Positions 27,861-62,601 of a stretch of DNA of 64,000 nucleotides are shown piece by piece. Each line of letters starts with the position of its first letter. Positions within the stretch are counted from its first letter, which is position 1. The notes beneath the pieces are model-generated. The model was not told the origin of the DNA, did not search any database, and was given only the letters and a program-made list of their open reading frames with translations. The translations under genes and the position numbers were made by a program. Source of the stretch: Comamonas fluminis (GTDB lineage: Bacteria; Pseudomonadota; Gammaproteobacteria; Burkholderiales; Burkholderiaceae_C). The stretch is from the NCBI RefSeq assembly GCF_019186805.1, contig NZ_CP066783.1, forward strand, positions 3,485,501-3,549,500. Direction: 5' to 3'.

Positions 27861-27945
27861 GCCCGGGTGGTGAAATTGGTAGACGCAGGGGACTCAAAAT
27901 CCCCCGCCGCAAGGCGTGCCGGTTCGATTCCGGCCCCGGGCACCA
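27861..27945 (+). tRNA. tRNA-Leu (anticodon CAA)
   Basis: An 85-base gene with encoded CCA. Acceptor arms GCCCGGG (27861-27867) and CCCGGGC (27935-27941) pair fully. The anticodon stem-loop is GGGGA-CTCAAAA-TCCCC with anticodon CAA, decoding UUG. A long variable arm (CGCCGCAAGGCG) marks it as class II, and GGTTCGATTCC is the T-arm. It sits immediately to the left of phage-type sequence and is the probable prophage attachment gene. Confidence 0.97.
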
Positions 27946-28728: not shown

Positions 28729-29754
28729 CTACTCTGCGCTCACCTTCGGCTCGTGCGGTGCAAACCTCACCACATCCAACCCCGCCCACTCGTTGAAGGA
28801 CTCAAACAGCCCCTGCAGCGGCACGATCTCATTGTTGATGAACACATCCAGCGACTGACTGGCATTGCCAAAGCCGCCCGCATTGTTCGGAATGATGCCC
28901 AGCAATCCAGGCGGCACGCGATGCGCGGCCAGCACATCCTCCTTGCTGGCGTTCTTGATCGCGGCGAAGTCATCCTTGGCCGCAATCTCGCTGACGGGGA
29001 TCAGCTTCAACCCATCGGTCTTACCGCCTGGCGCATGGACAAACAGATTGCGGAAGTTCCCCGGCCCCTTGGACTTGCGCAGCTGCTCGCGCAGCTTGTC
29101 CACGTCCGAGTTGTTCACCGAGCTGTCGCTCAGATACATGATGAAGCCCGCGTGGCTTCCATTCTCGTAATATCGGCGCCGGAAAATCGTGGCCGACTCA
29201 TTGAGCAACGCCGACTGCAGCGCGCTCAAATACTCCGGCAGGCCATACAGCTCCTGATTGATGTCCGGCTCGCGCAAATGGAACACCGAGCCCGGCACGA
29301 ACTCATGCTCCTCACTCCAGTTCGGCACATAGAAATAGCGCTTGTCCTTGCCCCGGCGCATATAGCGGCTCAGCGTGTGCTCAAAGCGCATCGCCCGCCC
29401 CGTCAACGCCCGCCGCGTCTCCAGATAACCATTGCCAAACACCAAAAAGTCCAGGCACCAAGCCTTGAACGTTTCACGCGACATCATCGGGTGCGGAATA
29501 AAACTCGCCGTCAGCAGATTGCGCTTCAGGTAAATCGCAGACCCATGGTGCGGCGATGCCCGAAACGCCCCGGCCAGCCCATCCACCGGAAACGGCGGCT
29601 CATACCAGCGGCCGTTAAACATCGCCTCCACATAATCAAGCAGCCGCATCCGGCTCATAGGCTCCGGGTCGCCAAAGGTAAACACCTCCATCTGGCCCTG
29701 ATCCTCAACCTCGGGCCGGGCCTGCGTCGTTCTTGGAGTATTGCGCTTTGTCAT
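28729..29754 (-). CDS. Q: Phage portal protein (P2 gpQ family)
   Basis: Dodecameric portal at the capsid vertex through which DNA is packaged. The 341 residues have normal gpQ length, with the conserved N-terminal RLLDYVEAMFNGRWYEPPFPVDGLA, LSRYMRRGKD, YGLPEYLSALQSALLNESATIFRRRYYENGSHAGFI, and the C-terminal AHRVPPGLLGIIPNNAGGFGN. Its ATG overlaps the P stop codon by four bases, so translation is coupled. It is transcribed leftward, opposite to the head genes, as in P2. Confidence 0.95.
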   Translation of the reverse strand: MTKRNTPRTTQARPEVEDQGQMEVFTFGDPEPMSRMRLLDYVEAMFNGRWYEPPFPVDGLAGAFRASPHHGSAIYLKRNLLTASFIPHPMMSRETFKAWCLDFLVFGNGYLETRRALTGRAMRFEHTLSRYMRRGKDKRYFYVPNWSEEHEFVPGSVFHLREPDINQELYGLPEYLSALQSALLNESATIFRRRYYENGSHAGFIMYLSDSSVNNSDVDKLREQLRKSKGPGNFRNLFVHAPGGKTDGLKLIPVSEIAAKDDFAAIKNASKEDVLAAHRVPPGLLGIIPNNAGGFGNASQSLDVFINNEIVPLQGLFESFNEWAGLDVVRFAPHEPKVSAE

Positions 29755-47842: not shown

Positions 47843-50800
47843 ATGGCTGATGCGCGCGTACAACTCATTCTGGATCTGCGCGAGAAAGTCCTCGCCCCAC
47901 TGCGCAGCATCCAGTCCGGCAGCAAAGAAGCGGCCGCCGCCCTCAAATCCACCCGCGACCAGCTGCGCGATCTGGAAAAAGTCCAGCAAGACATCACCGG
48001 CTACCGCCAGACCCGTATGCAGCTGCACAGCCAGCAAAGCGAGCTGCAGAAACTCACACTTCGCCGCAACGACTACAACGACAAGCTGCAGGACGAACGC
48101 GCCAAGCATCTGGAAAATGCTGCAGCCGTGCGCACTGCGCGTGAGGCGCACAAGCGCATGATGCAAAGCATCGAGCACGGCACCAATGTCACGCCCGCCT
48201 TTTCCCGCGAGCTGGAACTGATGCGCAACAAACTGCAGGCCAGCGAGAAAGCCTTCCAGCGCAGTACCGCAGGCATGCGCCGTGCCAAGGAAGGCATGAC
48301 GGCCACTGGCCGTGAAATAGGCGACCTAAGCGCCAAGATCAACAAAGGCAAAGAACGCCTGCAGGGCTACCAGCAACGCCTGGAAAGTGCAGGCCTCAGC
48401 ACCGACAAACTGGGCCAGGCTTGGCGCAGCCAAAAAACCCAGATCGCCGCCGCCACGGCCGCCATGGAGCGCCAGAAACAAACCCTTGCGGGACTTCGTG
48501 AGCAACAGGAAAAGGTCAACGCCCTCAAGGACAAGCATGCCAAGGCCATGATCCACACCGGCATGGCCGCCGGTGCAGGCGTCGCCATGGTGGCGGGCGG
48601 CCGAGCCATTGCAAGGCCGGTGCAGGCCACACTGGGCGCGTTCTCTCAGCAGGAAGATGCAACCACCCAGCTGAGCGCCAGCATGATGCTGTCCGACGGG
48701 AGTGTGTCCAAGGAATTCACAGAAATCGATGCATTGGCCAAGCGACTGGGCGACCGCTTGCCCGGCACCACCGCTGACTTCATCGAGATGATGACCATGC
48801 TGCGTCGCCAGGGCCTGTCTGCACAGACCATTCTGGGCGGTACCGGTGAGGCTGCGGCCCTGCTGGGCGTGCAGCTGCGCATGCCTGTGACAGAGGCTGC
48901 AGAGTTCGCAGCCAAGATGCAAGACGCCACTCGCACCACCGAGAAGGACATGCTGGGCCTGATGGACATGATCCAGCGTACCTTTTATCTGGGCGTGGAC
49001 TCCGGCAACATGCTGCAGGGCTTCACCAAGATGTCGCCCATCATGAATGTCATCCGCAAAGACGGGCTGGAAGCCAGCAAGATGCTGGCCCCGCTGCTGG
49101 TCATGATGGACCAGACCGGCATGAAAGGTGAATCCGCTGGCAACGCCTTCCGCAAGATCTTCCAGTCGGCCATGAACACCGACAAGATCAAGAAGGTGAC
49201 CGATGGACTGAAGGTGGAAAAAGGCATCGACTTGAAATTGAACTTCACCGACGGCAAAGGTGAGTTCGGTTCCATTGAGCAGATGTACAAAGAGCTGGGC
49301 AAGCTCAACAACCTCACCACTGAGCAACGCCTTGTCGTTGTCAAAGACCTGTTTGGCGACGACAGCGAAACTATCCAAGCGCTGGATACCATGATCAGCA
49401 AGGGGCAAGCAGGCTATGACGAGGTCGTCGCCAAAATGGAAGCCCAGGCCGACCTGAAACAACGTGTAGACCAGCAGCTAAGCACCCTGAGTAACGTCAT
49501 GGAGGCAGCACAAGGTGGCTTCACCAACGTCATGGCCGACATTGGCGACACCATCAAAAACGATGCCAAGGACGTCATCAAAGCCATTGGCAACATCACC
49601 AGCAGCATTGGCGGCTGGGTCAAAGAACACCCGGCACTGACCGCAGGCATTGCCCGCACCGTGGCCGTGCTGGCGGGATTGATGGTTGTGCTGGGTACGC
49701 TGCTGATCCCTCTGGCCCTGATCGCAGGCAAGTTCATGCTCATGCGCTTTCTGTTCAGCATGCTCAGCATCAAAGTTCCCATGTTCGGCGGTGCTATCAC
49801 TGGCCTGATTGGAGCATTTGCCAAGCTCGGCGCTGCCATGCTTGCTACACCTTTTGGCTGGCTGATTCTCGGAATTGCCGCGGTAGCAGCGGCGGGCATC
49901 GCGCTAATCAGCAACTGGGAGCCTATCAAGGCGTTCCTGCGCGGCTTCTGGGAAGGCTTCACCAGTGGACTGGCACCGCTGGGGGAAATGCTCTCGTCAG
50001 CCTTTGGTGATTTGGTCTCCATGCTGGAGCCACTGCGCCCGATCTGGAACTGGCTGACAGATGAATTGGGGCAGGCTTGGGACTGGTTCACACGCCTCAT
50101 CACTCCCGTGGAGGCGACGCAAGAAGCATTGACCAACGCGACTCAGGCTGGCCGTAGTCTGGGTGCATGGCTGTCTGGCTTGGTAGTCTCTCTGGCCCGC
50201 CTCGTTGGTACGTTCTTTAGCTTCGGGCTGAGCATTGCACGTGGTGTCATTGGCGGCATCACTAGCATGTTGGGAGCCATTGCCACAGTGGCAGCCACTG
50301 TGGCCCGTCTCTTCTCTCGCCTCTGGCAAGGCATCCAGACCACCGCCATCAGTGCATGGCAGTCCATTGCCTCCACACTGTCAGCTCTCTGGTCTGGTGC
50401 GGTATCGATGGCTGGTTCTGTATGGGGCGGGCTGTCTGGATTCTTTGCGGGTATGTGGCAAAGCATCAGCAGCACCGCCTCTTCAGCTTGGTCTGGTATC
50501 ACATCCATGCTGGGTCAGGTTTGGTCATCGCTGGTCGCGGGGGCGTCTACCCTCTGGCAGCAGCTGGGCGGTTCCTTCCCTGCAGTGTTGCAAACCATCA
50601 GCACAGCCATCATCAACTGGAGCCCGCTGGGTCTGTTCTACCAGGCATTCGCTGGCGTCATGAGCTACTTTGGTGTGGAGCTGCCCACCAAGTTCACCGA
50701 GTTCGGTGCCAACATCATTCAGGGCCTGGTCAACGGCATTACCAGCAATCTGGCCATGGTGCGCGATGCTGTGGGTGCGGCCGCCAATTCTGCGGTGGGC

Positions 50801-51258: not shown

Positions 51259-51705
51259 ATGCTCTGCCTTGGCCTCTTTGTCTTCAGCCTGGACACCCTC
51301 TCCTACCAGGACTTGCAGCGCCGCACCTATTGGAAGCACCCCACCCAATCCATCGTGGGCGGGCGAGACACCTCGCAGTACCTTGGCTATGGCGAGGACA
51401 TCATCACCTTGAGCGGCAGCGTGGTGCCCGAATTCAAAGGCAAGCGTGCCAGCCTGGAAGAGCTGCGCATGATGGGCAACACCGGCCTGGCCTTTGCCCT
51501 GGTCGAAGGCAGCGGCACCGTGTACGGCGCCTTTGTCATCACCGAAATGCAGGAAACCAAAACCTACTTCGAGGTGGACGGCACGGCCCGCAAGATCGAA
51601 TTCAGCCTCACCCTGCGCCGCGTCGATCAAGACGATGAAGGCGATGCCGCTTACAGCGATGGGATGGGCGACCTTGAAATGTCCGAAGCCGTCAGCCTGA
51701 GTTGA
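51259..51705 (+). CDS. U: Tail protein U (P2 gpU family)
   Basis: 148 residues. LGLFVFSLDTLSYQDLQRRTYWKHPTQSIVGGRDTSQYLGYGEDIITLSGSVVPEFKGKRASLEELRMMGNTG is a textbook gpU core. The in-frame TTG at 51244 lies inside T and is not used in this call. It is needed for tail completion and sits between T and D. Confidence 0.95.
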   Translation: MLCLGLFVFSLDTLSYQDLQRRTYWKHPTQSIVGGRDTSQYLGYGEDIITLSGSVVPEFKGKRASLEELRMMGNTGLAFALVEGSGTVYGAFVITEMQETKTYFEVDGTARKIEFSLTLRRVDQDDEGDAAYSDGMGDLEMSEAVSLS

Positions 51706-51710
51706 TCACC

Positions 51711-52859
51711 ATGAGCGATATTGACGACATCCGCCACCGCCAGCCCTATGCCACCTCCACCGGCGGCCGGGGCCAGCGCCTCTTTCTGCAGCTCACACCT
51801 ATCTGGCGCGTCACCGTCAAAGGGCAAGACGTATCGGCCCGCTTTGCCCCGCGCCTGATCAGCCTCACCATCACCGACAACCGAGACGGCGAAGCTGATG
51901 AAGTGGAAATCGCCATCAGCGACCATGACGGTGCTGTAGAGCTGCCCGACACCGGCGACACCATGACCGTGGCCATCGGCTGGCAGCTCAGCCGTGGCAC
52001 CGGCCCCTACCGCGCACCCACGCAGGAAGAAATGGGCGGCTTCCCCCTGGGGCTGGTAGACAAAGGCAGCTACACCATCCAGGCCGTGGAATACAGCGGC
52101 GCCCCGGACACCATCACCCTGCGCGGCCGCGCTGCCAACCTGCTCGATGAGCTGCGCGATCTGAAAGACCGCAGCTGGCACAAAACCACCGTCGGCACCA
52201 TCGTGCGCAGCATCGCCGCGCAGAACAGTCTCAAGGTCAGCATCGACAAGGAAATCGAGCAGCGCAAGATTGGCCACGCCGATCAGTCACAAGAGTCCGA
52301 CGCCTCATTCCTGCGCCGCCTGGGCCGCCAGATGGACTGCCTGTGCAACATCAAAAACGGCACCCTGTTATTCAGCCAGGCGCGCAAGGCCCGCACACCC
52401 AGCGGCACAGAGCTGCCGCCCGTCACCATCACCCGCAACGCGGGCGACCAGCACCGCTGGACCCGCTCAGACCGCGACAGCTACAGCGGCGTCAAAGCCT
52501 TCTACAACAACATCAAGCGCGGCACCCGCTCCAGCGTGGTGGCAGGCATCAGCGGGCGGGCCAAAACCCTGCGCCAGACCTTCGCCAATGAAGCTGACGC
52601 CCTGGCCGCCGCCCGTGCCGAATGGCTACGCATCCAGCGCGGCATCTACTCCTTCGACATCACGCTTGCCTACGGCCGTGCCGACGTCATGCCCCAGCGC
52701 CCCGTGGTCGTCAGCGGCTGGAAAAAGCAGATCGATGAAACCGTGTGGATGGTCACCGCTGTGCGTCACTCCTTGAGCAGCAGCGGCTACACCAGCCAGC
52801 TCACGCTGGAGACGCAGCAGAGTGAAGGGGTCGATGGAGGGGACGAAGCAAATGATTGA
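51711..52859 (+). CDS. D: Baseplate hub/late control protein D (P2 gpD family)
   Basis: 382 residues; the family forms the tail hub on which the gpV spike sits. FLQLTPIWRVTVKGQDVSARFAPRLISLTITDNRDGEADEVEIAISDHDGAVELPDTGDTMTVAIGW is characteristic, as is SFLRRLGRQMDCLCNIKNGTLLFSQAR. It closes the FI operon; the ATG at 51711 lies six bases after the U stop codon. No ogr-like gene follows, unlike P2; that activator gene has moved to the early operon. Confidence 0.95.
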   Translation: MSDIDDIRHRQPYATSTGGRGQRLFLQLTPIWRVTVKGQDVSARFAPRLISLTITDNRDGEADEVEIAISDHDGAVELPDTGDTMTVAIGWQLSRGTGPYRAPTQEEMGGFPLGLVDKGSYTIQAVEYSGAPDTITLRGRAANLLDELRDLKDRSWHKTTVGTIVRSIAAQNSLKVSIDKEIEQRKIGHADQSQESDASFLRRLGRQMDCLCNIKNGTLLFSQARKARTPSGTELPPVTITRNAGDQHRWTRSDRDSYSGVKAFYNNIKRGTRSSVVAGISGRAKTLRQTFANEADALAAARAEWLRIQRGIYSFDITLAYGRADVMPQRPVVVSGWKKQIDETVWMVTAVRHSLSSSGYTSQLTLETQQSEGVDGGDEAND

Positions 52860-52885: not shown

Positions 52886-53743
52886 TTACTCAATTCCGAT
52901 ATCTTCATTATTTTTCAATTTTTTATATTTACTATATTCTTCAATTCTTTTATTAATGTTGGAGGCCATTATATATTTCATTATCTGATATACGAAAACT
53001 ATAATCATTAAGAAACACGCAACAGAAATTCCAGCAGAAAATGCTTTTGATTTTTTTATCGTATCTTGATAGAATTTTTTTCCTTCAACGCTAAATATTC
53101 CACATGCGATGTACGTGTTAAATGTCTTATTATCAGAATCATTGCCAGGCTCTGGATATGCTCCAGCAGTCATCACATCGCACTGCCTACGGCTAAATTT
53201 TTCATCGTAAATGGACAGCTTTTTTCCATCAAAATGAAAATTTTTCTCTGTTTCAACAACGACAAATTGTGCATCATTTGTATTTAAATAAATATTAGAA
53301 ATAATAATAAATAATACGAGAGCTGAAATAAGAACACTATTAATAACAATATCCGACTTAAAACTGCTTTTTCTAATACGACCAAGCCGTGCATCAAAGA
53401 GGTTGGAAATCTTGCGAAGCTCAAGGAAGTTCACGTTATTAGAGGTAAGCCAAGTTCTCAATGACCTAACATGATCTTTAGTTTCCACATCGAATCCATA
53501 CCTATATCGGAACAGCTCCAAGTCTCTAATAATCTCCCAGTCATTATTAAGTTCTTTGTCATTAAATTCCAACTTGCCACCAAAAAATATCCATATTCTA
53601 TCCAAAAGGAAGTTTATTGATTTGGCTCGGTAGATACAAAGAAAAAGACAAATAGCAACAATACACCCTACAATTAATCCTCCAAAAATCGGAAATGAAC
53701 TAGCGATTGAACCAATTCCGTCAACAACATCTGCATTACTCAT
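52886..53743 (-). CDS. AT-rich three-TM membrane protein of unknown function (cargo)
   Basis: 285 residues with predicted membrane helices at ~18-38, ~132-151 and ~234-255. Between TM1 and TM2 is a ~90-residue soluble segment (FLLDRIWIFFGGKLEFNDKELNNDWEIIRDLELFRYRYGFDVET...) and between TM2 and TM3 an ~80-residue extracytoplasmic-type segment with two cysteines (RRQCDV, YIACGIF). The gene is far more AT-rich than the phage structural genes and uses AAA/TTT/ATT codons heavily, indicating recent import. The first half looks to me like the uncharacterised family annotated DUF6216, which is unverified. With the next gene it forms a leftward pair (27-bp gap). Phage exclusion or antiphage defence is a reasonable hypothesis, not shown. 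Confidence 0.75.
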   Translation of the reverse strand: MSNADVVDGIGSIASSFPIFGGLIVGCIVAICLFLCIYRAKSINFLLDRIWIFFGGKLEFNDKELNNDWEIIRDLELFRYRYGFDVETKDHVRSLRTWLTSNNVNFLELRKISNLFDARLGRIRKSSFKSDIVINSVLISALVLFIIISNIYLNTNDAQFVVVETEKNFHFDGKKLSIYDEKFSRRQCDVMTAGAYPEPGNDSDNKTFNTYIACGIFSVEGKKFYQDTIKKSKAFSAGISVACFLMIIVFVYQIMKYIMASNINKRIEEYSKYKKLKNNEDIGIE

Positions 53744-53770
53744 ATCTTCTATCGATAAATATTTTAATAT

Positions 53771-55240
53771 TTACTTACCGCGCACAAGCTCAATTATCTT
53801 TTTCAGTTCATCTGCGTTGAGCTTTTCAAGAATCTGAAAAGCAGGTGGCTTTTCTATGTGCTTACCATCCAACGTTACTGAAGCGTTGTAAGCGATTGCA
53901 TTGATCGACTTGGCAATCAAATCCTTCTGCAAGTCTTCTGCATCACCCTTCAGGTCCTGAAGCTGCTTCTTGTAGCCTTCATAAGACGACGCAAGCGCCT
54001 CTTTGTGCGCGTACTCTTGCTGGAGTCGTTCATACTGGCTTCTGCGAGTAGCAGAGAACACTGCAAACCAAACTACTGGAATCACAACTGGTGCGCGAAC
54101 TAGGAGCGTTTTCAGCATCTCAGTCCAATCATGCGCTTTCACAAGTTCAATCTTTAAAGGATCGCTAGTGAAATCAATAATCATAAAAATTCCAGATAAT
54201 AGCAAAACAACCAATGCACAATAAAACGCTATCGTATAGTTTTTAATGGGTTTATTGAATGAGTCTTTCAGCGATTTATAGGCTGTTGCTAAGCCTGCAC
54301 TAGTTGCCCCAGGCAAGAGAGATTCAACTTTCTCGAACATCGCATTATGTCGAGTTTGATGTTCACCCTCAAAAACTCCAAGCTGTTTAAGTCGATCATC
54401 AATTTCCTGCTTAAGTCCAATGCTATCAACTTTCCCGTCTACACCGGGCGAAGAACCGAATACTCTTTGATAGAACTGCCTTAATTCTTCATGCTCTTTT
54501 TCCGAGGCATTAGTTAACTCAGTTAACCTATTTCGCAAGTTATCGATATCGCGCTGATAACCTCCAACCAACTGCGAAGTCGATTCAGGCCCCACGAGCA
54601 ATTTATCGTGTAGATCTGCTACTGACTTTTGATCCGTCGATATTTTCTCCACTAGGTTTTTTACACGTTGCTCAGTGGAAATTTTCTCATCTATGTTCAA
54701 AAATAGGTAATCATCAAATCCTTTGATTCTTGCCTCTATCTCATCAAATCTCTTTTTTTGTGCAACTGCCTCTCCACTTGCAATAGAAAGAGAAGATTGT
54801 GCCTTTTTTGCAGCTTGTTCTAATGATAATATGTAGTCATCAAACTGCTCTATATATGATTTTTGAGCGATTCCATAAGCTTTTATGTACTGTTCAGGAA
54901 TTACCAAATACGGTCTAAGCTGAGCAATCAACATATCTGCATATTCGTTCGCATTGACTAAATATCCAGAGTTTTGAGTTCCCTTATATTGATTTATCTC
55001 ATGACGGCAGTTCTCAGAATATTGATGACAGGTTGAATATATTGCCAACGGCATTAATTCAGCATCCAAATTATCAATTATGCTTCCTAAAAATGACAAA
55101 ACTTTCTTAAGCCTTGCCAACTCTTCCACTGTGCCGGCCGAGGTGCTTTCATCGATAGCCAATTCTTGAACGGTTATCAAGAGCACTTCCCATGATTTTT
55201 TAAATGGGTGCTGATTAGCTGAGTTAGTCCATCGGCTCAC
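53771..55240 (-). CDS. Large coiled-coil membrane protein of unknown function (cargo)
   Basis: 489 residues. The N-terminal ~125 residues are soluble and helical, followed by long coiled coils (~130-260), a conserved-looking ESLLPGATSAGLATAYKSLKDSF just before two membrane helices (~335-356 and ~379-396), a second coiled coil (~400-445) and an acidic helical C-terminus. No enzymatic motif (Walker, HD, TIR, nuclease) is visible. It is AT-rich and is the first gene of a leftward pair with the three-TM gene. The arrangement suggests a membrane-anchored sensor or scaffold with a membrane partner. I do not recognise a named family. Confidence 0.78.
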   Translation of the reverse strand: MSRWTNSANQHPFKKSWEVLLITVQELAIDESTSAGTVEELARLKKVLSFLGSIIDNLDAELMPLAIYSTCHQYSENCRHEINQYKGTQNSGYLVNANEYADMLIAQLRPYLVIPEQYIKAYGIAQKSYIEQFDDYILSLEQAAKKAQSSLSIASGEAVAQKKRFDEIEARIKGFDDYLFLNIDEKISTEQRVKNLVEKISTDQKSVADLHDKLLVGPESTSQLVGGYQRDIDNLRNRLTELTNASEKEHEELRQFYQRVFGSSPGVDGKVDSIGLKQEIDDRLKQLGVFEGEHQTRHNAMFEKVESLLPGATSAGLATAYKSLKDSFNKPIKNYTIAFYCALVVLLLSGIFMIIDFTSDPLKIELVKAHDWTEMLKTLLVRAPVVIPVVWFAVFSATRRSQYERLQQEYAHKEALASSYEGYKKQLQDLKGDAEDLQKDLIAKSINAIAYNASVTLDGKHIEKPPAFQILEKLNADELKKIIELVRGK

Positions 55241-55306: not shown

Positions 55307-55681
55307 TCACCGCCGCACATAACTCTTGCGCCCCGAATCCGAATAGCAATACTGCCCGCCACGCGGCCCGGTGCAGATATTGCCGCTGCGGCAGCTGCAG
55401 TCACCACCAGCAGACGGGGAAGACTTGGACTGCGACATCAGCCCCAGGGAACGGCTGGCACCGCCGCCGCCCATCTCGGCGCTGCAGCTGCGCTTGGAGC
55501 CACTGATCGATCCGTCATTGCAGACAAACTGCTCACCCGCGCAATGAGCCACCCCGCCCTTTTTGCCAGAGCAGGGGTAGTTCGCCGCATTCACATGAAA
55601 AGCAGCCAAAGCCATGACTGCACAAGCGAGTGCAGCTCTCAAAACAGAAGCATTCAAAACGTCAAACCTGCGCGACAGCAA
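55307..55681 (-). CDS. Secreted cysteine-rich small protein
   Basis: 124 residues; a signal peptide is seen ([23 protein letters not shown], cleavage after VNA), followed by a Cys-rich mature part with eight cysteines, for example [33 protein letters not shown] and [26 protein letters not shown]. The pattern is of a disulfide-stabilised periplasmic/secreted protein that occurs widely in proteobacterial genomes with no assigned function. The start at 55681 overlaps the end of the BRCT gene by 20 bp, suggesting one transcript; the internal ATG at 55615 is less likely because it would shorten the signal peptide. Confidence 0.72.
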
Positions 55682-57635
55682 GCCCAGCTGTCCACTGCTC
55701 TTCCGTCACGATCAGAATCGGATGCCCCTGCTCCTTGAGCTTCATGGCAGAGTCAATCTTCTGCCCATAGGTCGCCTGCTTCCAAGAGACGGTTGCGCCC
55801 GCCGATCCAATGACCAAGTAATGCGTGGTCTTGGTCACACGGTCCACACAGATGCCACCAACAGCCTGGGTTGCGGCCGCCGCATCGCCGCGTGATCCAA
55901 AGTGAAATTTACCGGTCAAGCAGACATTACGGCCCGCCAGCAGCACCTCGCCGTCATCAGCAGGGAAAGCCATCGTCTCTGGCGTCACGCTGCCAGTGTC
56001 AGCAAAGTCCACGCCTGAAGCGGCCTTCAGTTCGGCCATCAGCTCGGCGCGCTCGGCCTCTGTGATTACGCCGTCGGACAGGATGTGGTCAATGGTCTTG
56101 ACCAGCTTGTCGTAAAGCCAGTGATCTGCCTCATGCTGCTTTTCAGCCAGCCAGGTGCGTAGAAACTGGATCTCCATATCGTGCAAATGGCCGTCAGCCG
56201 TAATGCCCGCAATCAGGCCCAGCAACTGCGCGCAGGCCCTCTCTGTTCTGCGCTCGCGATTGACTCCACTCTTAGGAATGAATTGCTCATCCATAGTTCT
56301 CCCCCTCTTTGCTTTATTTATTGGCTCAGCGGCCTTTGGCTCTTTGAGACCATCTGGAATCATGGCCAGCATCGCGGCTTCGTCCAGAACCGCAATCCCC
56401 AATTCTTCGGCCTTTGCCTGCTTACTGCCGCCGTCAAAACCACACACTACAAACTTGGTGTCTAGGTTCACGGCATTAACCACTGTCGCACCAGCTGCCT
56501 CAAGCAACCGCTTAGCTTCTTTTTTATCGAGAGTGGGCAACTCTCCCAATAGAGCCACTCTCTTTCCTGCAAAGCTCTCTCCAGTACCAAAGCACGGCAC
56601 GAGCTCTTGCATTTCACTCCCCCTCTTTGGTTCCGATTCAGCGCCCGTCGGCGCTTTCATCGGTGCTGCTGTCGTCCCCACTGCTGTGACAGGCTCTGGC
56701 GGCAGCAGCGCGAGAAAGCCAGCCTCGTCGATCACCGGCACGCCCAGCTCTTGGGCTTTGATCAACCTGCTGCCAGCCTCGTTGCCGCATATGACGTAAT
56801 GCGTTTTTTTGTTGACCGCCTGGGTCACCGTCGCACCTGCGGCTTGGGCAAGCTCCACTGCCTCGGACCGATCAAGGCTAGGCAGCGTTCCCGTAAAGAC
56901 CACTCGCTTCCCTTGCAATGTCTGCGTGAAGCCCGGCTCACTAGTTTTGCTTAGGGCGGCCATGGGCATGCTGGTGGCTACCGCTTTAGCTAGAGGCAAG
57001 GGACTTGTGGCGGAGTGAACTGCAACAGCTGGCCACGGTTCTTGGATGGGTGTGCTGGCTTGAACCGCTGGCTCTGGCAGAGGTGCTGATGTCTGTGAGG
57101 GCACGGCAATGGCGACTGGTGCAGCAGGCCCATCCGCAGTAATGGCAAGCGCTGCAGGCAACACATCGTCAACTAATGAAGCAGGCGACGTGGCGACGAC
57201 AGCGCCCTTGACTGCCGCACTCAATAACGCATCAGCCGGCTGAACGGCATGCAGTGAAAGTGCCACATCTTCTTTGAGATTGGGGGGCGTATAGGGCGTC
57301 TCAATCTCTGCAGAAGAGACCGCCACATTCGCAGAGCTGACAGCAGATTGTGGCGCGTTGCTTGGTGATGCTGAGCGAGTCAGGAAGAATGCAGCAGCAA
57401 CAAACACCCCACTCAAGACAATCAACGTCCAGACTCGCGCACCTGTATCAGGGCTTGTCGTTGCAACAATGAACACCCCGGCGGCCAAGAAAGACACGAC
57501 ACCTAAAGTGCTGCCCAAGGCATGCTTGAGAAGCGGTGAAAGACTTTTGTGCTTTTTCGCTAAACGACTCCAAAACCAGATGCCTATTGCTGGGGCGATG
57601 CAAAGCAGCAGAAGCCCTCTGAATGTTTCATCCAT
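55662..57635 (-). CDS. Membrane-anchored triple-BRCT protein with TerB-like domain
   Basis: 657 residues with an unusual layout. Three membrane helices lie at the N-terminus (~7-24, ~41-60, ~67-86), followed by a ~145-residue Ala/Pro/Val-rich linker. BRCT 1 is at ~237-311 ([31 protein letters not shown]), BRCT 2 at ~352-426 ([31 protein letters not shown]), a TerB-like helical domain at ~460-545 ([26 protein letters not shown], then [17 protein letters not shown]) and BRCT 3 at ~566-652 ([29 protein letters not shown]). BRCT domains of this LigA-like type bind DNA ends or phosphopeptides. Its GC and codon use are close to the host average. A role in membrane-associated DNA-end sensing is speculative. 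Confidence 0.88.
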
Positions 57636-57700: not shown

Positions 57701-58048
57701 TCATTTACGTTGATCTACAAAAGCGACGTAGTCCACCGCGGATCTAAAAAAAGCACGCCCCTGATCGGAAGTGCTCCGAAAAATGTGCAGTAAGTCACGT
57801 TCTTGAGGAGCAAGCGTGCTATCCGACTCTCCCGCCTTGGTGCCGGTTACCACGTAGAGCACGTCGACACCTAGACCTGCCATCAGCGCGAGCACGCCTG
57901 CATTGGGCGCGGTTTCGCCCTTCTCCCACTGCAAAAGTGCATTCCGTGAAGCATCACAAGCGGCTGCGAAATCGACCTGGGAAATGCCAAGCCTCAGCCG
58001 CTCCTCCCTAAGGCGCTCTCCTATTTGCACATATTTAATTTCACTCAT
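57701..58048 (-). CDS. Prophage repressor (short XRE-type helix-turn-helix)
   Basis: 115 residues. The N-terminal HTH_3 domain (IGERLREERLRLGISQVDFAAACDASRNALLQWEKGETAPNAGVLALMAGLGVDVLYVVTG, residues ~9-68) is followed by a short helical C-terminus (LLHIFRSTSDQGRAFFRSAVDYVAFVD). It lacks an S24 self-cleavage domain, like the P2 C protein, and sits opposite the early operon across a dyad, the position of a lysogeny repressor. Confidence 0.88.
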   Translation of the reverse strand: MSEIKYVQIGERLREERLRLGISQVDFAAACDASRNALLQWEKGETAPNAGVLALMAGLGVDVLYVVTGTKAGESDSTLAPQERDLLHIFRSTSDQGRAFFRSAVDYVAFVDQRK

Positions 58049-60480: not shown

Positions 60481-60486
60481 TTGGCC

Positions 60487-62601
60487 ATGGCTGTATCGCT
60501 CATCCCGCGCAAGCGCGTCACATCCAGCTTCAGGGAGTGGCTGCGCCACCTGCCCAAGCAAGCGCATGTGGACCACCACCTGGCGCGCATCATCGAGTCC
60601 GCACCACGCGAGTGGCAGAGCGCCATCCGCGCCCGCTTTATCCAGACGGCCCCCATGCCGCCTGCAGGCGTGGCCATGGATTCCAAGGAATACGCACGCT
60701 GGGAGTTGGGCCTGCCAACCGAGAGCGAGCAGGCATGGACACAGCTGCAAGCGCTGGCCGACTATGAAGACCGGTATGGCGATGCGCTGCGCCTGAACAT
60801 GAGCGATGACGAGATCTGCGCCTGGGCCAAAAAGCTGGCCGAGGATGTGGAGGAGTTTGACAACCGCATCGCGGTGCATGCCACAAGCACGCTGAGCTTT
60901 CCCAAGCTGCAGCCTGCATCGCCCAAAGTGATTCTGCAGGCCCGGGTCGATGCGGTGCGCCGGATTGTGGATCTGCTGGGGGTTGAAGTCAGCAAGCCCA
61001 TTGAGGGTGAATCCGACATCGCCAGTGCCAAGTGCGCCCGCTGGTGGCGCCGCCGTCTGCGTCGTCACATCGCCCGGGTGGTGGAGGCTGGCGCCATCAA
61101 TATGGGGCTGGTGCACCTCAATAGCGGCGGCTATGTGAGTCATAGCGGCCTGCACCGCCGCAAGGGTCAGCTGGCACGCAATGCAGAGGCGCTGGGTCGC
61201 ACGTATTTCAAGAATGAAGCGGGCCAGCATTACAGCCTGGCAGAGCTGTCTGCACTGAGCACATCCAACCCGACCATTCGCGGCGGTGAGCTGATGACGC
61301 GCATTCGCGGCGCCGAAGAGTACGCCGATGCCCATGGCCATGTGGGCCTGTTCCTCACGCTGACTGCACCCAGCAAGTACCACGCCATGCGGCTGGTGGG
61401 CCAGGGCAGCAGGCGCTGGGCCGAGCGCAACCCAAAGTTCAACGGTGCTGACCCACGTGAGTGCCAGCAAATGATGCTGGCCTTGTGGAAGCGCGTACTG
61501 GCCAAGCTGGACCGCGAGCAAATCAAGCGCTATGGCCTGCGCGTAGTGGAACCACACCACGACGGTACACCACACTGGCACATGCTGGTGTGGACGGAAG
61601 ACAAGGCGGCGGCCCGAAAGCTGGTCGCAGTCATCCGCAAATATTGGCTGAGCGAAGACGGTAACGAGCGCGGCGCGCAAGAAAACCGCGTGGATGTGAA
61701 GCGCATGGAAGCTGGCGGCGCTGCTGGCTATGTGGCCAAGTACATCGCCAAGAACGTAGGCCACATCGCCCTGGCCGAGCACATGGATGTGGTGATGGGC
61801 CAAGAGATCCAGATGCGTCTGGGCCTTGACCAACCAGTGCAACCAGAGCTGACCGACACCAATGGCATGGCCGCCCAGCGCCGCGTGGACGCATGGGCCG
61901 CCACCTGGGGCATTCGCCAGTTTCAAGCCTTCGGCATGCCCAGCGTAACGGTGTGGCGCGAGTTGCGCCGCGTGAGCAAAGACCAGCCCGAGCAGCTGGA
62001 TCTGTTTTGCCAAGAAACCCAGCACAAAGTGCAGCGCGCCTATCAGGCCTGCCACCGCGACGGTGAGGTGCGCGCCGACTGGCGTGCGTTCATGCAGGCC
62101 ATGGGCGGCCATAGCTGCAAGCGCCATGACTGGCTGCTGCGCCCTGCCCGCCGCGCCGCCAAAGCTGGCGCAACCAATATGTATGGCGATGAGCTGACCG
62201 TAGGGCCAGTGCGCGGCGTAGAGATCCAAACGGGCCGCGCACGCGGTCACTGGCTGGTGAGCCGCCGCATTGCGTGGAGCCACTGCACAGAAAAGCCCAT
62301 GGCAGCACACGCCGAAGGTGTGGCTGCAGACGCCGAAGGTGTGGCTGCAGACGCGGATGGCGTCATCAACACCCCAGGCCAAGAGGCGCAGACACGGCAG
62401 GCTTTGCCTGCCGCTTGGACTGGTTTCAATAACTTCACGGGCCGCCTTCAGGGCGCCGCCGCTGAACAGATATCGATCAGCAAAAACCGTGAATCAGGCC
62501 AGCAAAACAGCCGCCTGGACCCCGATTCAGCCGCCTACCAGCGCCAAGCACTGGCCAACCGCTTTCAGCAAGCCGCCCATTTCTTCAAAAACGCCCATTG
62601 A
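60487..62601 (+). CDS. A: Replication initiation protein A (HUH rolling-circle endonuclease)
   Basis: Nicks the phage origin and starts rolling-circle replication. The 704 residues contain HUH motif 1 as FLTLTAPSKYHAM, motif 2 EPHHDGTPHWHMLVW with H363-W-H365, and motif 3 YVAKYIAKNV with Y415 and Y419, the two catalytic tyrosines that are characteristic of P2 gpA. The N-terminal ~300 residues include the gpA segment CARWWRRRLRRHIARVVEAGAINMGLVH. A low-complexity AEGVAAD repeat interrupts the C-terminal tail. Start ATG 60487 is preferred over the TTG two codons upstream. Confidence 0.95.
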   Translation: MAVSLIPRKRVTSSFREWLRHLPKQAHVDHHLARIIESAPREWQSAIRARFIQTAPMPPAGVAMDSKEYARWELGLPTESEQAWTQLQALADYEDRYGDALRLNMSDDEICAWAKKLAEDVEEFDNRIAVHATSTLSFPKLQPASPKVILQARVDAVRRIVDLLGVEVSKPIEGESDIASAKCARWWRRRLRRHIARVVEAGAINMGLVHLNSGGYVSHSGLHRRKGQLARNAEALGRTYFKNEAGQHYSLAELSALSTSNPTIRGGELMTRIRGAEEYADAHGHVGLFLTLTAPSKYHAMRLVGQGSRRWAERNPKFNGADPRECQQMMLALWKRVLAKLDREQIKRYGLRVVEPHHDGTPHWHMLVWTEDKAAARKLVAVIRKYWLSEDGNERGAQENRVDVKRMEAGGAAGYVAKYIAKNVGHIALAEHMDVVMGQEIQMRLGLDQPVQPELTDTNGMAAQRRVDAWAATWGIRQFQAFGMPSVTVWRELRRVSKDQPEQLDLFCQETQHKVQRAYQACHRDGEVRADWRAFMQAMGGHSCKRHDWLLRPARRAAKAGATNMYGDELTVGPVRGVEIQTGRARGHWLVSRRIAWSHCTEKPMAAHAEGVAADAEGVAADADGVINTPGQEAQTRQALPAAWTGFNNFTGRLQGAAAEQISISKNRESGQQNSRLDPDSAAYQRQALANRFQQAAHFFKNAH
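62311..62352 (+). repeat. Tandem 21-bp repeat inside gene A
   Basis: Two exact copies of a 21-bp unit (62311-62331, 62332-62352) encode AEGVAAD twice, followed by a degenerate third (ADGV). It lies in the C-terminal region past the catalytic domain. Confidence 0.85.

Follow-up and report, generated by a model that had tools for sequence, protein, structure and literature searches.

It has been described that P2-like prophages possess hot spots for cargo genes between gpA and gpQ and at the fun locus (tin, old; fun) (extracts of PMC9122126 and PMC9519451), while the membrane proteins of known systems are believed to be effectors that kill the infected cell (extract of PMC9122126). In Escherichia coli, a defence island (RRDM) contains darTG2 embedded between hsdS and hsdR, a site that has been termed a potential recombination hot spot (PMC12255303, in extract). 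For prophage Butters, the extract of PMC7542560 describes a two-gene exclusion system, gp30 and gp31, whose products are proposed to act jointly against phages and of which only gp31 is predicted to span the membrane. The protein family DUF6216 (PF19723) was named as an inserted gene of unknown function in an extract of PMC11192851, the one mention of DUF6216 found among open-licence PMC papers; none were found there on the second family treated here, which has no name to search by.

The module described here lies in Comamonas fluminis, within a stretch of 64,000 nucleotides of contig NZ_CP066783.1 that was analysed as a whole (hereafter the window), and encodes a 489-aa coiled-coil protein (hereafter CC) and a DUF6216 protein of 285 aa. 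Like the cargo of the P2-like hot spots it is small and AT-rich, and the published sets, as extracted, also include membrane proteins. Unlike that cargo, it occupies a slot between gpD and a regulator gene, neither gpA-gpQ nor the fun locus, and its two families are not named for those sites in the extracts. The original prediction had regarded the interval between tail gene D and the repressor as a usual cargo site of P2 relatives; this does not agree with the hot spots named in these extracts. The module resembles Butters gp30/gp31 in being a pair of neighbouring prophage genes that includes a membrane component, but both CC and DUF6216 are predicted to span the membrane, and the likeness is one of gene layout. 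Both families fall outside the coverage of PADLOC 2.0.0. From its gene context, the module is read here as prophage-borne anti-phage cargo with CC as its main component and DUF6216 as a lineage-specific partner, a reading to which an even chance is given.

The P2-like prophage and its cargo slot

Most of a P2-like prophage is contained in the window. The Pfam families recognised are those of a gpQ-like portal (28729-29754), terminase, GPO, P2-type capsid, baseplate J, sheath, GpU, GPA (gpA, 60481-62601), tape measure and gpD, all but the last two of which confirm a P2-like phage. One end of the prophage lies inside tRNA-Leu(CAA) (27861-27945). The 3' part of this tRNA gene recurs on the same contig 4.25 kb past the right end of the window (L185), so the element is about 40 kb long and, judged by its ends, complete. 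Two ORFs noted by eye between the probable integrase and the right end of the element (window-equivalent 65283-68124) are possible lysogenic conversion genes: one of 356 aa resembles a glycosyltransferase, and one of 566 aa starts like a lipoprotein.

The cargo slot is bordered by gpD (51702-52859, forward strand; PF05954, 1.2e-14) and by an HTH regulator (57701-58048, reverse strand; PF01381, 6.4e-9), which confirms the placement between tail gene D and the repressor. The leftward genes between them are, in order, DUF6216, CC, a 124-aa ORF and the gene of a 657-aa BRCT protein. CC is encoded at 53771-55240 (GTG start) and DUF6216 at 52886-53743 (ATG start), both on the reverse strand and separated by 27 nt (53744-53770). 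The GTG start is backed by relatives of CC, most of which open with MSRW or MTRW (25-row alignment), and because close relatives of both proteins exist elsewhere, the two frames are more than chance. The GC content of the module is 0.34-0.41 (500-base windows), compared with 0.51-0.65 in its surroundings; by gene it is 0.405 for CC and 0.324 for DUF6216, against 0.598 for the whole window. ORF coordinates and GC content therefore bear out the two leftward, AT-rich genes 27 nt apart that were first noticed, and GC content and hydropathy support their description as acquired cargo encoding two membrane-bound proteins. Low GC seems to be a trait of the CC family rather than of this host: in all 45 loci with sufficient flanking sequence, the CC gene has a lower GC content than its flanks (mean 0.38 vs 0.50). 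Scans for promoters and terminators were uninformative (8 and 4 found, with 6.8 and 2.8 expected), and Rfam gave zero matches between positions 50000 and 60000 of the window.

Two other genes share the slot. The 657-aa protein (55662-57635, reverse strand) possesses three BRCT stretches and a hydrophobic N-terminus, and matches phrog_3989 (1.7e-63), PADLOC PDC-S48 (5.6e-27) and, far below the cut-off, the anti-phage protein GapS2 (2.1e-14); it is a second candidate defence gene. The 124-aa ORF (55307-55681, reverse strand), directly upstream of CC, is cysteine-rich and its product is probably exported. Relatives of this ORF also precede CC in loci L013 and L091, as does a 35-residue match in L011 (loci described below); it may represent a third component or simply belong to the phage backbone.

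Predicted structure and topology of the two proteins

The 285-aa protein belongs to DUF6216 (E = 1.5e-30), scoring 106.8 bits where the cut-off is 27.3, with its residues 24-269 aligned to positions 16-265 of the 270 in the profile; the definition of this family does not include a CC neighbour. Its single match in PADLOC 2.0.0 is weak (JAB, E 0.06). Hydropathy analysis predicts membrane helices at residues 19-37 (53633-53689), 130-148 (53300-53356) and 234-252 (52988-53044; all on the reverse strand), as expected for the three-helix membrane protein of the original prediction. By charge pattern the N-terminus is placed outside and residues 38-129 inside, helix 3 being ambiguous. With residues 38-129 inside, the stretch between helices 2 and 3 (residues 155-217; 53093-53281, reverse strand), in which alignment and model place small strands, Cys188 and Cys214, would lie outside and is predicted to be periplasmic. 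Cys188 is invariant, and Arg39, Gly56 and Cys214 are conserved at 90% or more, among 28 rows with identity down to 12% (the DUF6216 gene of L113, split in two frames, was left out of alignment A5). As both cysteines are placed outside the membrane, a Cys188-Cys214 disulfide is likely. The structural model (mean pLDDT 81; strands 158-183 at pLDDT 80-89) is moderate (pTM 0.61) and no solved structure matched it at E ≤ 0.001.

CC begins with a predicted helical bundle (residues 1-115; 54896-55240; AlphaFold2 pLDDT mostly 85-96 here), followed by long helices and coiled coil which, by model and column conservation, form its least conserved part (residues 116-300; 54341-54895), with 0 of 135 columns (116-250) reaching 90% among 97 rows. 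These are succeeded by the motif LLPGATSAGLA (residues 308-318; 54287-54319; alignments A1, A3 and A9), membrane helix 1 (residues 337-355; 54176-54232; hydropathy 2.77) and, after only about 23 residues, membrane helix 2 (residues 379-397; 54050-54106; hydropathy 2.05). The helix RRSQYERLQQEYAHKEALASSYEGYKKQLQDL (residues 399-430; 53951-54046; all features on the reverse strand) is the best conserved part of the family, with 18 of the 32 columns 401-432 at 90% or more in the same 97 rows. In the model, long helices stand ahead of the membrane helices and one long helix runs through and beyond helix 2, in keeping with the protein of 489 residues with two membrane helices and coiled coils on both sides that had been recognised from the sequence. 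The AlphaFold2 model is moderate (mean pLDDT 77, pTM 0.41), and Foldseek gives no solved structure for it at E ≤ 0.001.

CC has nothing above the Pfam or NCBIfam cut-offs and matches 0 families of PADLOC 2.0.0 at E ≤ 1, nor does it match a known toxin-antitoxin family in Pfam, NCBIfam, PADLOC or PHROGs; two PHROGs, both of unknown function, are matched, among them phrog_30912 (9.3e-9). The module had been put forward as a system of an undescribed type, which holds for CC in respect of Pfam, NCBIfam and PADLOC, but not for the smaller protein, as this belongs to a named Pfam family. No toxic or enzymatic motif was found in the module, as originally remarked. CC also matched coiled-coil proteins weakly, among them SMC and long helical toxins, but with E-values of 0.0005 or worse and a Z inside the helical background these matches were put down to general helix similarity, and a weak fold likeness between the N-terminal bundle and the Avd, plant CC and HET-s bundles is not significant. 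SLATT-type effectors possess two membrane helices and, behind them, a cytosolic helix, a layout that CC shares. In sequence, however, CC is unlike SLATT and was not retained as a relative: comparison with one SLATT_5 protein of the same genome gave an hhalign probability of 0.2%, and SLATT is absent from the six Pfam families found for CC at E ≤ 1. The SLATT_5 membrane protein of this genome (G000:C2:236788-237279, L184; 7.5e-30) belongs to a defence-type family.

From these features CC would be an inner-membrane protein with its bulk in the cytosol, an anatomy (a large variable cytosolic part and a fixed membrane core) that is consistent with a sensor linked to an effector in the membrane. 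The same topology could also serve superinfection exclusion at DNA entry, both inner-membrane proteins blocking DNA injection by related phages while the cell is not killed. Such a role would suit two predicted membrane proteins of a temperate phage, the smaller with a conserved and probably periplasmic domain bearing two cysteines, and the Butters prophage (PMC7542560, in extract) sets a precedent with its two exclusion genes, one of them for a membrane component. Most of CC, however, including its best conserved helix, lies outside the membrane and is predicted to be cytosolic, and the chromosomal restriction-operon contexts of CC (see below) are more readily explained by an intracellular role than by an exclusion gene confined to prophages; exclusion at DNA entry is accordingly considered unlikely, and anti-phage cargo that acts from within the cell is preferred.

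Recurrence and mosaicism of the CC-DUF6216 pair

HMM searches found CC and DUF6216 side by side in three further loci, namely L011 (Comamonas sp. NoAH), L013 (Comamonas testosteroni ATCC 11996) and L091 (a viral contig). The gene order is the same in all four loci, with gaps of 27, 24 and 44 nt in L011, L013 and L091, respectively. The pairs of L011 and L091 are flanked by gpD, GpU and the HTH regulator; in L013 the regulator is present and gpD is a 56-residue remnant. A fifth pair was inferred from metagenome proteins P0106 and P0126, which are on contigs of equal size (3087). A single clade of nine rows (support 100/98) holds all five paired CC rows, the inferred one included; these five are the rows of the clade to which a context could be assigned. 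A lack of co-occurrence elsewhere, or a clear match to a housekeeping family, had been named as evidence that would speak against the original prediction; with the pair recurring in L011, L013 and L091 and no housekeeping match found, it withstands this check. Its claim of a two-component system is partly supported by the recurrence in three loci, but not in the sense of an obligate pair, since DUF6216 was detected by HMM in only 2 of the 80 CC genome loci examined (the best 80 of 93) and CC in 0 of 18 DUF6216 loci with flanks (0/8 and 0/10, with L118 counted although under the cut-off). Among the 11 viral CC loci, DUF6216 was detected by HMM on 1 distinct contig.

The two genes differ in their relatedness from locus to locus. 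Between the window and L013, protein identity is 50% for CC and 85% for DUF6216; between the window and L091 it is about 61% and 19-24%, respectively. In DNA comparisons (blastn), the window and L013 share 84% identity from approximately CC residue 390 through DUF6216 to near gpD, the rest of CC giving no match, while the window and L091 share the end of CC (77%) and gpD (89%) and do not share DUF6216. This pattern suggests that the front part of CC and DUF6216 may have been exchanged within a fixed frame, although drift or recombination alone could explain why the front part has diverged, and such mosaic genes argue against a strictly co-adapted pair. The contrast between the shared end of CC and its unmatched front part in L013 also speaks for a division of CC into sensor and effector.

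It could accordingly be supposed that CC and DUF6216 are two independent single-gene cargos which came to lie side by side by chance in one prophage lineage, there being no two-protein system. The discordant relatedness and the rarity of each gene near the other favour this supposition. Against it, the same order and a short gap (24-44 nt) are kept in all four loci, the paired CC rows share one clade, and the arrangement has outlasted strong divergence of both genes. A chance juxtaposition is thus held to be improbable, and DUF6216 is retained as a lineage-specific partner of CC in the proposed anti-phage cargo; any contact between the two proteins would be inferred.

Genomic neighbourhoods of the CC and DUF6216 families

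The CC family is large (887 proteins at E ≤ 1e-3 among 7999 candidates scored). A genome scan confirmed 93 relatives, the best 80 of which were kept as loci. Relatives occur in Pseudomonadota, Campylobacterota, Bacteroidota and other phyla, have ORFs of approximately 296 to 500 residues, and have in common a C-terminal core consisting of LLPGATSAGLA, the two membrane helices and the helix RRSQYERLQQEYAHKEALASSY. Neither CC nor DUF6216 proteins were matched in 50,697 phage records. A search for plasmid DNA similarity gave no match in 72,556 records, and a plasmid protein search gave 31 records, all below 60% identity and none covering 80%. In Wohlfahrtiimonas (L062 and L059), CC occupies the same gpD-flanking slot without DUF6216, the order in L062 being HTH, CC and then gpD in opposed orientation.

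HsdM and/or HsdR were identified by tblastn within the fetched flanks (up to 8 kb) of 11 of the best 80 of 93 CC genome loci, compared with 0 of 40 control loci (Fisher p 0.015) and 0 of 11 viral CC loci; as controls, stretches of 16 kb were taken at fixed positions from same-phylum genomes other than those of the CC loci. HsdR is present in 10 CC loci, against about 0.3-0.4 expected in their 1.09 Mb from 140 HSDR_N matches in 120 genomes, an excess whose calculated probability is a guide only, as the counting methods differ between observed and expected and two of the loci, L066 and L075, come from Nitrospira MAGs. In six loci (L027, L031, L038, L050, L066 and L075), CC is flanked by an HsdS match on one side and an HsdR match on the other, all on the same strand, and in L031 and L038 it directly adjoins both. 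These six relatives thus occupy the same slot as embedded defence genes such as darTG2, whereas the CC of the window, a membrane coiled-coil protein, is in a prophage and not in an hsdS-hsdR slot. In the tree, six restriction-linked rows fall on five separate branches (L031; L050; L026; L027 with L038; L034), so the association of CC with restriction genes arose repeatedly. Among 144 neighbours of CC loci (of 188; the six restriction-linked loci excluded), matches to 291 PADLOC families were obtained, and type II methylases lead the 25 families listed, in 3 members.

DUF6216 was found in 2 of 369 (class), 4 of 250 (family), 6 of 398 (phylum) and 12 of 248 (one other family) genomes, draws which overlap and three of which include the genome studied here. 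Scanning viral contigs with the single DUF6216 sequence gave no relative, and with the alignment gave one, on the L091 contig. One relative adjoins HsdR, one is beside a Pycsar-cyclase-like protein and a JetC/mad3-like protein, and one (L114) adjoins TniQ and TnsB. A distant CC relative (L139) was observed behind the Tn7-like genes TnsA/TniB/TniQ on a conjugative IncA plasmid of E. coli, and Tn7-like elements seem to carry both families (L114, L139). The PADLOC matches among 95 DUF6216 neighbours (of 116; 17 loci) include a type I REase (E 0), a Pycsar cyclase (4.5e-173), PD-Lambda-1 (7e-114), a type IV enzyme (1.5e-107), and an EcoRI-type methylase and REase (EcoRI names from Pfam). The best match among 95 control neighbours (of 108) is 2.7e-73, most of the matches listed being to one kinase-like model set. 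The number of PADLOC families matched does not differ (70 near DUF6216 and 65 in the control, 95 proteins each) and was not taken as evidence; the difference lies solely in which models are matched best and how strongly.

A function other than defence, such as prophage maintenance in the lysogen, envelope stress or regulation, would be compatible with the many CC loci that have no recognised defence neighbour, type I restriction genes being absent near CC in 69 of the 80. It explains less well why CC recurs in type I restriction clusters, also on chromosomes with no visible phage genes nearby, as well as in plasmid and Tn7-like cargo, and why a variable part stands beside a rigid core in this protein; such a function is regarded as very unlikely.

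For the anti-phage cargo favoured here, the following course may be envisaged. The variable helical and coiled-coil part of CC would sense a product of the infecting phage and pass the signal to the conserved two-helix membrane core and the adjoining cytosolic helix, and this core would then disturb the membrane or otherwise stop the infected cell. That sensing in the cytosol is coupled to a membrane effect is a guess of moderate confidence, the sensing and effector roles being ones that we infer, while pore formation is simply a guess. DUF6216, of which a small and probably disulfide-bonded domain would lie outside the membrane, would be a partner kept in one prophage lineage and could tune or extend the membrane effect or act separately against phage entry.

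A broader and rather doubtful proposal is that CC founds an undescribed and widespread family of membrane-anchored immune sensors, in which a rapidly changing coiled-coil sensor would be coupled to a nearly invariable membrane core of two helices and to the cytosolic helix, and which would serve as a fail-safe in type I restriction operons when restriction is blocked, and which P2-like prophages would carry alone or with a swappable DUF6216 that adds a disulfide-bonded outer domain. If this were true, a large family that lacks a curated model in Pfam, NCBIfam and PADLOC would represent a membrane-bound arm of immunity in several phyla, and DUF6216 would gain a role. The recurrent insertion of CC beside type I restriction genes would make it possible to test whether a membrane fail-safe is linked to restriction, and the slot between gpD and the regulator would be added to the cargo sites already known in P2-like phages.
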